In this document: positions 27,442-34,489 of the stretch, in pieces | How positions within the stretch are numbered: position 1 is the first letter of the stretch | Layout: each line of letters begins with the position of its first letter | Virus record (IMG/VR): IMGVR_UViG_3300021600_000014 | Location: 1 to 35,514 of that record | Source: a virus | Strand: one strand, 5' to 3' | DNA: 35,514 nucleotides | Program-made: the position numbers and the translations under genes | The notes under the pieces: generated by a model | The model's database searches: none | Seen by the model: the letters and a program-made list of their open reading frames with translations, nothing else | What the model was told of the DNA's origin: nothing

Positions 27442-27823
27442 CGGTTTTTTTGTATGAAGTAGTCAACTCTTTTAAAAGTCCGCGCAATTCTTCAACCTCC
27501 TCGTCGTCTTCATTTTCAACAACCATAGTCTGCACAGCCTTGCCATCAATGCGATCCACAACATCCTTGAGCATTGATGTGTTGCCATTGATCACGGACT
27601 CTCGGAGCACACGATCAACAAGCAACTCGGCATACGTTTTTTTGTTTTCACCCGGTGGACACTCTTGTAATTTTCGCTTAAGAATTGCCACCAAAGAGAA
27701 TGAATCTTTTTTGCGACCACCGCCCGGATTGCCAATTGCAAACTTCCCAGTTTCCGGGTCGGTGTAACGTTTATCCACGTTTAAAAACGTTGATTCTTCT
27801 AATTTTCCAGCTTCTTCGGCCAT
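27143..27823 (-). CDS. Terminase small subunit-like protein, 226 aa
   Basis: The N-terminal half contains GKFAIGNPGGGRKKDSFSLV, with the GNPGGG..K motif, and a helical part (AELLVDRVLRESVINGNTSM, then LKDVVDRIDGKAVQTMVVEN), a pattern I associate with small terminase-like (DUF5681-type) proteins. The C-terminal 100 residues are low-complexity (Ala/Pro/Gly/Asp-rich) because the frame runs on through the TerL start for 299 nt. The DNA-recognition part should be the N-terminal half. It overlaps the methyltransferase gene by 25 nt. The terminase pair is otherwise in standard order. Confidence 0.72.
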   Translation of the reverse strand: MAEEAGKLEESTFLNVDKRYTDPETGKFAIGNPGGGRKKDSFSLVAILKRKLQECPPGENKKTYAELLVDRVLRESVINGNTSMLKDVVDRIDGKAVQTMVVENEDDEEVEELRGLLKELTTSYKKTDEPIKSNTNGDTKLAIADNTAGGEATLPAPAADVPDRGEAGRPDANGGTTGDILGADIQAPQTPADRELHPVREESDGGAGMCDNLVHSGGVSVSGGSN

Positions 27824-29028
27824 ACGATTGGTTGCCCATTTAAAATAATATTTTCATTACCAGTAAAGTCCACGTAGCGCTGAACTATGACGTCGCAATA
27901 TTTTGGTTCCAGTTCCATGCCGTAGCAAACGCGGCTCGTTTTTTCACATGCGATAAGACATGAGCCACCACCCAAAAACAAATCCATCACCAAACAGTCC
28001 CGGACGCTGCTGTTTAAAATTCCACGCATTACCAATTCCACTGGCTTCATTGTTGGATGTTCTTTGTTTGACGTCGGACGTTTTACTTTCCAAATGTCGG
28101 TCTGCTTGCGGTCACCATTCCAAATCCTTTTTTCGCCATCCTTCCAACCATAAAGAATCGGTTGACCGTCCTCGTTTTCGTCCTCATTCTCCACCAATAT
28201 CGGCTCAAATTGAGTGTGGTAATCAGCGCGAGATAAAACAAGCCTATCCTTAACCCAAACAATGACTCGCGACCAATGCCCCCCCAACCTTTTGAATGAG
28301 TCCTGAACTGTTCCCCATTCCGATGATGACATGCAAACGTAAATCGCACCGCGGCAGAATGTCAAAAGATTGGTAACAAAGCCGTCAACAAACACTTTGA
28401 AATCCTCCGGTGACATCTGGTCATTCATTATTTTGTTTCCATTGCTCGCTTGATACGCCACATTGTATGGCGGATCAGTCCAAACCATGTCCGCTTTTTT
28501 TCCTTCCATTAAGTGAGTGACATCCTCAAGATTACAAGAATCTCCGCACATCAAATGATGGCTGCCCAAAACATAAATGTCGCCAAGTTTAGTCCTTGGA
28601 TTCACTGGCGTCGCAGGAATTGCATCGTCGTCGCTGCTTGGATCAACTAAAATATCCAAATCAAAACCAGTGGCAATCTGCAAATCCTCGTCCAGTTCTC
28701 GCAGGTCTTCAATGGCCATCTCCAAATTCCAATCGGACTCATTCAATTTATTGTCAGCCAATCGGTATGCTTTCTCTTCCGGGATACTTAGCTTTTTGTC
28801 CTCTGGTGCGCCGCTGATAGTTTTTCCAGTTTCGTCAATGATCCAAGGTTCCTTTATTCCCTCGGGATATTTTGAATACGCCTCCCAACGTCCGTGGCCA
28901 ACAATGATAACTCCATCAGCGCCAACCTTGATCGGTTGCTGCCATCCAAAACGCTGCAAACTATTAGCCAAAAGCTTCAATTGCTTTTCCGGGTGCTTCT
29001 TGGCGTTTTTAGAATATGGTGTAATCAT
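27799..29028 (-). CDS. ParB-domain/DNA N4- or N6-methyltransferase fusion, 409 aa
   Basis: Residues 1-95 form a ParB-like domain with the GHGRWEAY signature (44-51). The methyltransferase follows, with motif IV TDPPYNV (184-190, catalytic DPPY) before motif I MDLFLGGGS (348-356), plus HPTMKP (324-329), an order typical of the beta group of amino-methyltransferases (N4-cytosine or N6-adenine). ParB-methylase fusions are common in phages, probably protecting DNA from host restriction or marking it for packaging. No restriction enzyme is adjacent. It lies directly upstream of the terminase genes. Confidence 0.9.
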   Translation of the reverse strand: MITPYSKNAKKHPEKQLKLLANSLQRFGWQQPIKVGADGVIIVGHGRWEAYSKYPEGIKEPWIIDETGKTISGAPEDKKLSIPEEKAYRLADNKLNESDWNLEMAIEDLRELDEDLQIATGFDLDILVDPSSDDDAIPATPVNPRTKLGDIYVLGSHHLMCGDSCNLEDVTHLMEGKKADMVWTDPPYNVAYQASNGNKIMNDQMSPEDFKVFVDGFVTNLLTFCRGAIYVCMSSSEWGTVQDSFKRLGGHWSRVIVWVKDRLVLSRADYHTQFEPILVENEDENEDGQPILYGWKDGEKRIWNGDRKQTDIWKVKRPTSNKEHPTMKPVELVMRGILNSSVRDCLVMDLFLGGGSCLIACEKTSRVCYGMELEPKYCDVIVQRYVDFTGNENIILNGQPIVWPKKLEN

Positions 29029-30901: not shown

Positions 30902-31363
30902 TTATAAACCCGGAAACAAATCGACCGTTGCCTCCAATTTTTCTATAACACTTTTTGCTTCTTCAAAGCCATAGCACACGAAAGCCTGACAATTGTTGCA
31001 TTTATTCAGCGCATCGATCCATTCCTGCTGCACCTCTGAAACTCCCCCCATTCCTTTCCCAGTCTTACTTTTACGATCAATCTTTTTCATCTCCACCCAC
31101 ACTAACCTATCACCAACTATAATAACCATATCAGGCAATCCAGCACGAACACCTGTGGCAGTATTCTTATTGCACTCCGACCAAGTTGTACGAGTTGAGT
31201 TAGGTATTGCACTAAACTTATAACCCTGCTCAGTCAGCCATTTCACAAAGTTACATTGCTCTGTATACTCCGATGGACAAGCATTTGGATCAACAACCTT
31301 ACACTTATTAACCACCTTACTCTGATTCCACTTTTGAAAGTCTTTAGTAGTTAGTTTGAACAT
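30902..31363 (-). CDS. VRR-NUC domain nuclease, 153 aa
   Basis: A PD-(D/E)XK-type core is visible: TGVRAGLPDMVIIVGDRLVW (70-89), with Asp78, then VEMKK (Glu91-x-Lys93), and later GVSEVQQEWIDALNKC (107-122), the Q-x-x-W helix typical of VRR-NUC. Such stand-alone phage VRR-NUC proteins are structure-specific nucleases, probably resolving branched replication or recombination intermediates. N-terminal 30 residues (NKCKVVDPNACPSEYTEQCN) contain several cysteines. It follows the C5-methyltransferase gene with a 5-bp gap, the same AT-rich stretch. Confidence 0.87.
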   Translation of the reverse strand: MFKLTTKDFQKWNQSKVVNKCKVVDPNACPSEYTEQCNFVKWLTEQGYKFSAIPNSTRTTWSECNKNTATGVRAGLPDMVIIVGDRLVWVEMKKIDRKSKTGKGMGGVSEVQQEWIDALNKCNNCQAFVCYGFEEAKSVIEKLEATVDLFPGL

Positions 31364-31368
31364 TTGTT

Positions 31369-32325
31369 TTATTTTATGTTTTTAAAAATATGAGCTATCA
31401 CATCGACTGTCCAACCATCACCAATACAACCTGCTGCTTTATTTCTAGTAAGACATTTAGTATATCCATCAGGCAGCGTCTGTAATCTTTCCAATTCAGT
31501 CTGTGTAAAATATCTCAAATCACCATCTTGGAATAAAAAATACTGATTATTACGCAAAAGACAATTAGACTTATCTTTCATAGCCCTACCTCTTCTAGTT
31601 TTACTGGTAGGATAACTCAAATCTACTCCTTGATTATTTCCAATATCCACAAACCCTATCTTAGTAGCCTCCCTAACTCTTAAAAATGTTTCCTCATCTT
31701 TTGTTATCAGCGTAGTAAATCCAGCATTAAAAAATCTATGTGCCATTTTATGTTGCTGCACTAATGGTCTTGATTCACTTTCTAATATAGATCTTGCTTT
31801 ATCCCTATCAGTGTATCCATATTCTATAATGTCTTGTAATTTTATTCCCCTATCTTCTAGTGCATCAACAGGTATATTTGTCCAATAAAACCTATTTCTC
31901 ATTTGTGCGGAAGCTAATTTAGAATTTATATTTATTGGCTCTACTCCAATCTCTTTAGAAATAATATCTTGCCATTCTTTTTTCATTCTAACATTCTCCA
32001 ACAAAAAGTATTTTGGCTTCAATTCTTTAAGCAATCTGGCATACTCCCAAAACAAACCACTTTTTCCATTAAATCCCTCCATCTTTCCGGCAATCGAAAA
32101 ACTTTGGCATGGAGATCCACCTATAAGCAAATCAATCTGTGGCAAATCTTCAGCCTTTAATTTAGTTACATCACCTACTTGGATAGTATTAGGAAAATTA
32201 TCCATCGTGACTTTTATTCCATCCTCCTTAATTTCAGAAGCATAATAATTATTTACACTAATACCTGCCTTCTTGAGTGCTAATTGACCACAACTAATGC
32301 CATCAAACAAAGATAATACATTCAT
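31369..32325 (-). CDS. DNA (cytosine-5) methyltransferase, 318 aa
   Basis: All main motifs are present: motif I LSLFDGISCGQLAL (4-17), motif IV GGSPCQSFSIAGK (69-81, catalytic Cys73), motif VI LLENVR (108-113, Glu110), motif VIII region around SAQMRNRFYWTNIP and the C-terminal motifs FTQTELERLQTLPDGYT and GDGWTVDVIAHIF. It transfers a methyl group to C5 of cytosine; the sequence specificity is not evident. No restriction endonuclease of a known type is adjacent, though the VRR-NUC gene follows. The gene is clearly more A/T-rich than its neighbours, suggesting recent acquisition. Confidence 0.93.
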   Translation of the reverse strand: MNVLSLFDGISCGQLALKKAGISVNNYYASEIKEDGIKVTMDNFPNTIQVGDVTKLKAEDLPQIDLLIGGSPCQSFSIAGKMEGFNGKSGLFWEYARLLKELKPKYFLLENVRMKKEWQDIISKEIGVEPININSKLASAQMRNRFYWTNIPVDALEDRGIKLQDIIEYGYTDRDKARSILESESRPLVQQHKMAHRFFNAGFTTLITKDEETFLRVREATKIGFVDIGNNQGVDLSYPTSKTRRGRAMKDKSNCLLRNNQYFLFQDGDLRYFTQTELERLQTLPDGYTKCLTRNKAAGCIGDGWTVDVIAHIFKNIK

Positions 32326-32334
32326 TTTATTTTT

Positions 32335-32994
32335 TTATTTATTATTTAGTGCTAAAATTGCTTCCCTAAAGGTCACATTATTCAAAGCCATATATACCTT
32401 GATCGCATCCCCTGATTCTCCGCACACATAGCAATAAGCAAAATTTTTCCGAATATCCATATTCCAGCCCTCTCCTTGGTGAAAGCAACACTTGCTCCGG
32501 CCATTTACTCCTCGCTCCAACAAATCCTGAATAGAATAATCTCGCGCCCTTTCAATCATCTCATCGGTGATAACATCCTCGCTCGAACGTCTCCCTTCCA
32601 GAACATCAATCGAAAGTTTGTAGCCATTGATTTTTTTCTTGAGTCCCTCGGCCATTTTTGACAGCCGCACCAATTCATCCTGCCTTTCCAATCCGCGCGT
32701 TTCAGCCACATACTCATCGCCGCAAGTTTGAAATTCCATCTTGGCGTTTTCAAGGCACTGTTTCAAATACCGAATGCGCGCCCTTTTTCCAAAATCTGCC
32801 ATTTCCGGCGACTCCGCCCATTCTCGCACTGACTTTCTAACCGCTCGCAATTCCTCGTGCCTGTTTTTTGTCATCCGGGAGCTAATCTCAATCCATTGGT
32901 CGTGGATCCATTCGGCATCCTCGTGCAAACTTTTTGGCACCAATTTCAGCCATCCACCAAATTGCTCGAGCCTCAAAACTTGTTGCAAAGTCAT
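32335..32994 (-). CDS. CHC2-type zinc-finger protein (primase N-domain-like), 219 aa
   Basis: The C-terminal 60 residues carry a DnaG-type CHC2 zinc finger: RSKCCFHQGEGWNMDI with Cys169/170 and His172, then FAYCYVCGESGDAIKVYM with Cys188 and Cys191. Residues 20-140 are helical and charged with a coiled-coil look. There is no Toprim catalytic domain, so the protein cannot be a complete primase; it may provide DNA recognition to a host or phage primase. It lies directly after the iteron cluster. Confidence 0.8.
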   Translation of the reverse strand: MTLQQVLRLEQFGGWLKLVPKSLHEDAEWIHDQWIEISSRMTKNRHEELRAVRKSVREWAESPEMADFGKRARIRYLKQCLENAKMEFQTCGDEYVAETRGLERQDELVRLSKMAEGLKKKINGYKLSIDVLEGRRSSEDVITDEMIERARDYSIQDLLERGVNGRSKCCFHQGEGWNMDIRKNFAYCYVCGESGDAIKVYMALNNVTFREAILALNNK

Positions 32995-33019
32995 ACGATT
33001 TATGTCTTAATATTTTAGA

Positions 33020-33220
33020 GGTGTGCAAATTGATTTTTTTTTATGGCTTAACCAAGCCAACTTGCATACCTGCACACCTAGATTCAATTTTCAAACTTTC
33101 CCCTGTGTTTTTCTATATAACTCTTACCTAAAAGGTATGAAAGGTATGCAAGGTATGCAAAGGGTGCTTAGTAGAGCCACGTATTGAGGTTGCACACCTA
33201 CTTGCACACCCTTGCACACC
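33020..33220. repeat. Iteron cluster, candidate replication origin
   Basis: Nine copies or near-copies of a 9-mer GGTRTGCAA lie in 200 bp: GGTGTGCAA at 33020-33028; TTGCATACC at 33062-33070 and TGCACACC at 33071-33078 (inverted); GGTATGAAA, GGTATGCAA, GGTATGCAA directly abutting at 33134-33160; TTGCACACC at 33190-33198, 33202-33210 and 33212-33220 (inverted). A/T-rich tracts lie between (33031-33041, 33107-33120). The cluster fills the gap between the replicative helicase and the CHC2 gene. Iterons at this place are the hallmark of a theta-type phage or plasmid origin; an operator array is the alternative. Confidence 0.75.
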
Positions 33221-34489
33221 TTAAATCTTAAACCAGCGCATTTTTTGCTCTCCGCCAACCATAACTCTCCGCCTTTCCCAACCCAACTGTTTCAATGCTA
33301 AGCCTATCTGCATCTCTTCGCTTTTGCGCATTTTTGAGGCGTCTGCTTGCAGTGCCCAGCGCCAAATGTCGGTGATTGTCACGCCCTCAGTCAAATCAAT
33401 CAAAGTTCCAAGTTTTAAAGGATTTGCAAACCAGTCGCGAATAGTGTCCTCAAAGGATGACCTAACCATTTTGGCATTTTGGTGGCACTCGCTGTCGCAA
33501 GGATATTCGTGCACGCTCTCTTTCAATTCTTCAACACGATAGAGCGCCTCGGCAAACATCTGCATCCTATTTTTTTCCAGCCATTCTAGGTCGACAAATG
33601 GGAGTTTCACTTCAACAGGATAAAATCGCCTGTTTCCGGATTCGTCTTTTAAATATTCGTCTTGATTGGTGCTCATTGCAAAGATGCAGCGGCGCGGCAC
33701 ATCTTTCATCGTTCGGCCATAAGGTGCGCGGTAGGTATCGGTTGCGGTGGAAATCATAGCTTTCATGTTTTTGGTCTCGGTGCGGCTGAGCGTCTCACCC
33801 TCGGAAAATTCCACGATCATCTTGCCTTTGAATTGCAAGAAAAAGTCTTTGTTGTCAGCCCGGAGTGTAGTCTCAAGGTGCCAGTCCCCGGCAATAATTG
33901 ATAGACTGGTAGATTTTCCGCATCCCTGCTTGCCCTCCAAAATCATAACGGTGTCAAATTTACATCCGGGTTGGATCACGCGTTTGACCATTCCTTTGAA
34001 AAAATTTGCGCCAACGGCCTTGTGATACTCGTCGTCTTCGGTTCCGTAAACCTTGGACAGCCACGAATCAAGCCTCGGCTTCATGTCCCATTTTTCCTGC
34101 CTGATGAAATCAAGTGCTCGGTCAAAGGAATTCTCGCGGCAAGTGTCCATCACTGCATCAATTACCATCTCCTTGCCAAGTTGGCGAAATTGCGGATACA
34201 TTGCGGAAATCCTGCGTTGGATTGGTGTGAAATCTGAGTCATCCACCTCAATCCAGCGACTATCCTTTTTGATTTCCATTTTTTGTAGCCACTCATCATA
34301 GCGAAATCGTCCTTTGAATTCCGGGTGGTTTTGCAAAATTCTAACCACATTTTCAGTGCACCGATTATAAACCTTGGCACCGCCACTCCCGGTAGTGGTC
34401 AATAATTTTAATGAATCGATAGGGATTTGTTGCGCTTCGTATGCAACGTCCCTGCCTGCTGCAGCAAACACTTGGTCTGTCTGTTTCAT
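33221..34489 (-). CDS. VirE/VapE-type (D5-like) replicative helicase/primase-associated ATPase, 422 aa
   Basis: The ATPase core shows Walker A ILEGKQGCGKST (183-194), Walker B KMIVEFSEGE (223-232), a sensor CIFAMSTN (268-275) and the family motif DESGNRRFYPVEV (282-294), which identify the virulence-associated protein E superfamily of phage and plasmid helicases. Residues 1-110 are a separate N-terminal region with no primase catalytic motif I can identify. The C-terminus (residues 330-422) resembles the wHTH-containing part that binds origins. It probably unwinds the nearby iteron origin. A 16-nt gap separates its ATG from the stem-loop element upstream. Confidence 0.87.
   Translation of the reverse strand: MKQTDQVFAAAGRDVAYEAQQIPIDSLKLLTTTGSGGAKVYNRCTENVVRILQNHPEFKGRFRYDEWLQKMEIKKDSRWIEVDDSDFTPIQRRISAMYPQFRQLGKEMVIDAVMDTCRENSFDRALDFIRQEKWDMKPRLDSWLSKVYGTEDDEYHKAVGANFFKGMVKRVIQPGCKFDTVMILEGKQGCGKSTSLSIIAGDWHLETTLRADNKDFFLQFKGKMIVEFSEGETLSRTETKNMKAMISTATDTYRAPYGRTMKDVPRRCIFAMSTNQDEYLKDESGNRRFYPVEVKLPFVDLEWLEKNRMQMFAEALYRVEELKESVHEYPCDSECHQNAKMVRSSFEDTIRDWFANPLKLGTLIDLTEGVTITDIWRWALQADASKMRKSEEMQIGLALKQLGWERRRVMVGGEQKMRWFKI

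Follow-up and report, generated by a model that had tools for sequence, protein, structure and literature searches.

The window, that is, the whole stretch of 35,514 bases analyzed here, carries on its minus strand a gene for a VapE-family AAA+ helicase (33221..34489, 422 aa) and a gene for a CHC2 zinc-ribbon protein (32335..32994, 219 aa), with a gap of 226 bp (32995-33220) between them. The helicase, a putative initiator, matches PF05272 (E=2.3e-63) and is classed as a DNA helicase in PHROG. The CHC2 protein, predicted to combine a coiled coil with a zinc ribbon, matches PF01807 (E=9e-9) at residues 158-218, and it is TOPRIM-less, as Toprim_2 has no match anywhere in the record. The record also encodes a terminase, portal, major head protein, protease, tail tube, and tape measure. 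Because these virion genes are present, the window is a tailed phage rather than a satellite such as a PICI element, which would lack a full virion gene set. A C5 cytosine methyltransferase gene (31369-32325) directly follows the CHC2 gene, and a ParB-like N-terminal part fused to an N6/N4 DNA methyltransferase is encoded at 27799-29028.

Nine 9-bp iterons of the form GGTRTGCAA lie in the gap in both orientations, as claimed in a preliminary description of this DNA, although two of them have one mismatch. The first set consists of GGTGTGCAA on the plus strand (33020..33028, exact), GGTATGCAA on the minus strand (33062..33070, exact), and GGTGTGCAG on the minus strand (33070..33078, one mismatch). 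The second set starts with the three abutting copies noted earlier, all on the plus strand, which are GGTATGAAA (33134..33142, one mismatch) and two exact copies of GGTATGCAA (33143..33151 and 33152..33160). It ends with three exact minus-strand copies of GGTGTGCAA (33190..33198, 33202..33210, and 33212..33220) at the 12- and 10-bp steps already described, the last copy adjoining the helicase stop codon (33220/33221), so that the proposed origin is directly 3′ of the helicase gene. Between the two sets (33020-33078 and 33134-33220) is an AT-rich segment with 27% GC (33079-33133), which contains TTTTTCTATATAA and is likely the melting region.

The record of 35,514 bases has no exact sites other than these seven, all within 33020-33220, which answers the genome-wide count that the preliminary description had proposed as a check. 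When the whole window was shuffled 100 times with dinucleotides preserved, the mean number of exact matches was 0.87 and the maximum was 4, the expectation being about 0.005 per 201 bp. The reversed control pattern of GGTRTGCAA has 0 matches in the record. GC skew is negative along the whole record and becomes weaker past 33 kb (-0.34 to -0.10), with the record ending 2.3 kb beyond. Rfam gave chance microRNA matches alone, far under gathering.

The AlphaFold model of the helicase, built with 37 sequences, has a mean pLDDT of 90 and ends in a predicted C-terminal winged helix (about residues 347-421), with wing strands at 404-411 and 414-421. Among solved structures, the best match is 7pds, 'PriRep1 with dsDNA', whose chain is named 'similar to D. 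nodosus vapE'. It is matched by sequence over residues 39-321 (E=1.7e-39, 24% identity) and by fold over residues 22-422 (Z=32.2, rmsd 4.7). Together with a profile match of E=1e-92, these place the helicase among homologs of SaPI-type Rep (VapE/PriRep). The earlier remark that no classical Rep initiator is encoded nearby was right, as Rep_3 (PF01051) is absent from the record, which sets the window apart from Rep_3 iteron plasmids. This absence is no puzzle, because the VapE helicase is homologous to PriRep1, a self-loading Rep-type helicase.

Two relatives keep the gene order of helicase and CHC2 protein. L009, with a helicase 65% identical to that of the window, has 9 exact copies of GGTNTGCAA, the same iteron as the window, in the same gap. 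In L008, whose helicase is 69% identical, the gap instead holds copies of another 9-bp iteron, GGTN[GT]AG[TC]A, on both strands. A search of contigs with the helicase alignment, using search patterns that were poor, found no relative, and a search with the CHC2 alignment retrieved two already known records and no others.

A scan of viral contigs for tandem GGTNTGCAA, performed on DNA only, found four clusters of mixed orientation (L042, L053, L066, and L088). A VapE helicase is encoded in all four of these records and in 2 of the 40 other records of two tandem scans, one of which (G021) itself bears a mixed cluster of a second motif (L215). In each of five iteron-bearing records, most or all copies of the GGTNTGCAA type sit in one cluster. 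The same iteron occurs beside different primase arrangements, namely a PrimPol-like ORF in L088, a fused N-terminal region in L053, and a longer CHC2 protein in L041, with domain calls on the ORFs of these relatives made by eye. Among eight records with mixed-orientation clusters of GGTNGAGTA, PF05272 has no match in four and only a weak one in three of the rest; D5_N has no match in these records.

Because both orientations were required of clusters, arrays on one strand were set aside. Same-strand GGTNTGCAA arrays occur at multiples of 9 bp in L079, L030, L081, and others, in some cases over long stretches. These were rejected as origins, being probably coding repeats unrelated to origins.

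Repeat clusters were then surveyed at VapE loci in general. A significant mixed-orientation cluster was present downstream of the helicase stop codon at 43 of 79 further loci, which are partly related to each other, and upstream at 5 of 71 (p<=0.025, 40 Markov resamples per locus). Among 15 named phage or satellite records, for 14 of which the upstream region was tested, the cluster was downstream in 11/15 and upstream in 0/14 (p<=0.01, 100 resamples). Named complete genomes with a cluster at the same place include Paenibacillus Bob, Enterococcus phiFL4A, Lactobacillus LfeSau, Corynebacterium Adelaide, and Marinobacter PS3. The iteron sequence varies from group to group. In the remaining 36 of the 79 loci, no significant cluster was seen downstream, which may reflect weak sites, an origin elsewhere, or a truncated locus. 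In the L010, L241, and L066 records, the cluster precedes the helicase by 0.8-2.6 kb; in L053, it is just upstream, and in the L240 record, it is at the far end of the contig.

Two residues of the wing vary with the iteron sequence. All six helicases with GGTNTGCAA iterons carry Arg408 and Gln415, and all four with GGTN[GT]AG[TC]A iterons carry Arg415 together with Gln or Asn at 408, in a comparison of ten loci where four of the six in the GGTNTGCAA group had been brought in by their iteron and the L010 sites are degenerate. Among 335 columns, 408 and 415, which were first picked by eye, stand alone in being invariant in the GGTNTGCAA group and disjoint from the other group; columns 100, 366, and 373 also separate both groups but are not invariant. 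When all 210 splits of the ten sequences were considered, only the real split yielded two such winged-helix columns. In the model, the strand register suggests a common orientation of 408 and 415, toward one side of the wing.

The two iteron groups do not follow phylogeny. L008 has the other iteron despite 86% identity to the window in the AAA+ domain, and L237 has the iteron of the window despite 79% identity to L010 and L240. GAGTA-like iterons had been predicted for L010 before its cluster was found, and the cluster holds GGTGTAGTA and related degenerate sites. L241 and the L240 record were found later, with GGTATAGTA and GGTAGAGCA, respectively. The distant loci L252 and L306, both with Gln408, do not fit. 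L238, which has a Gln/Arg wing, was tried as another case, and its best cluster in 38.8 kb (GAGTAGC) is a diverged repeat, apparently coding.

In a wider set of 49 loci, the wing signal is only suggestive. When columns were ranked against iteron similarity, 408 came seventh and 415 forty-fifth of 328. Iteron similarity correlates slightly better with winged-helix identity (rho 0.547) than with AAA+ identity (0.472), and the Mantel partials are 0.364 for the winged helix and 0.194 for AAA+ (both p=0.001). Because the AAA+ partial is also significant, shared descent explains part of the correlation.

We conceived that two wing residues of the VapE type could set origin specificity, so that Arg408/Gln415 would read GGTN-T-GC-AA and Gln/Asn408 with Arg415 would read GGTN[GT]AG[TC]A. 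Residue 408 would be tied to base 6 (Arg to G, Gln or Asn to A) and residue 415 to base 7, and joint changes of the pair would have occurred repeatedly, without regard to phylogeny. Judging from the sequence comparisons, we give this code an even chance of being correct. If it is true, sequence could show which of these phages and satellites have compatible origins.

Which protein reads the iterons had been left between the helicase and the CHC2 protein, and the comparisons favor the former part of that claim, but not the latter. The helicase is favored as the reader because the same iteron occurs beside VapE helicases without a short CHC2 gene, because a winged helix forms the C-terminal end of the helicase model, because wing residues switch with the iteron, and because SaPI Rep and Cch2 recognize their iterons C-terminally (PMC7581432). 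If the CHC2 protein read the iterons instead, as an origin binder of the primase type, its gene would be well placed, as it adjoins the array and its order is kept in L008 and L009. This is very unlikely, however, as the iteron is shared by VapE records with other primase arrangements (L088, L053, and L041) and the residues that switch with it, 408 and 415, belong to the helicase. The N-terminal part of the CHC2 protein, moreover, is a predicted coiled coil with no evident DNA-binding domain, although this point is weak with a low-confidence model (pLDDT 73).

The repeats could also be operator sites, bound by a transcription regulator of the replication operon, as they lie upstream of the CHC2 gene and inside a run of co-oriented genes. 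A scan of the gap for sigma-70-like promoters and for terminators found neither. Across many phages, the cluster position tracks the 3′ end of the helicase gene, and an operator would seldom have nine irregular copies on both strands about an AT-rich core, making this explanation highly improbable. Iteron arrays of plasmids also act in partition or incompatibility, and the ParB-like/methyltransferase fusion would fit a parS-like partition site, but the surveyed repeat clusters go with the helicase gene and such a site in place of an origin is extremely improbable.

We thus return to an origin read by the helicase. The gap (32995..33220) is very probably an origin of the SaPI/PICI type in a tailed phage, with iterons read by the phage's own VapE helicase, as judged from sequence, the structural model, and analogy. 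The initiator-binding origin that had been claimed earlier is supported by comparative evidence, namely the array in the same gap of L009 and the downstream clusters at 43/79 loci; in L008, the position holds a different iteron.

Several steps can be proposed for initiation. First, the C-terminal winged helix of the VapE helicase would bind the 9-bp GGTRTGCAA iterons. Second, by analogy with SaPI Rep and Cch2, the iteron sets on either side of the AT-rich core would let helicase hexamers assemble around it. Third, the core would then melt, and the helicase would start forks after self-loading, with no other protein as loader, again as in these two systems. Encoded in the same operon, the CHC2 zinc-ribbon protein would probably be a primase partner rather than the reader. 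A helicase-initiator that binds its own iterons, as proposed for the window, is known in the alpha protein of phage P4, although P4 alpha unites primase, helicase, and binding domain in one fused protein, unlike the window helicase.

The mechanism itself is already known from SaPI/PICI origins, and the wing code is the new part. In SaPI Rep and Cch2, the C-terminal domain reads the iterons and the origin is directly downstream of the gene (PMC7581432). In PICI origins, an AT-rich region is flanked by two sets of iterons (PMC6092414). The SaPI/PICI rep-ori is thus like that of the window in its AAA+ self-loading helicase, its origin 3′ of the gene, and its two sets around an AT-rich region (PMC6092414, PMC7581432). 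On the other hand, the window is a tailed phage that encodes a terminase, portal, capsid, tape measure, and tail proteins of its own, and its helicase is separate and followed by a TOPRIM-less CHC2 protein, with GGTRTGCAA as the iteron. PriRep1 (7pds), solved with dsDNA, is homologous to the window helicase by sequence and fold at 24% identity. Cch2 of SCCmec likewise binds direct repeats downstream of its gene through a C-terminal domain (PMC7581432), but it differs in having three 5-nt iterons (AAGTG) and in being a Primase_Cterm/D5-type helicase of the SaPI5 Rep group.

Replication from iterons beside the helicase gene looks general among phages that encode VapE helicases. This strategy would let the origins of these phages be predicted from sequence. 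It is also relevant to the ways in which satellites and phages use one another's replication machinery in common or keep clear of it, and it assigns a function to proteins that carry the annotation 'virulence-associated protein E'.

Incidentally, a VRR-NUC protein is encoded near the helicase region in the window (30902-31363, after the C5 cytosine methyltransferase). In several named phages (L318, L321, L322, and L324), the VapE helicase and the origin gap are followed by a VRR-NUC or endonuclease gene and then by a second helicase.
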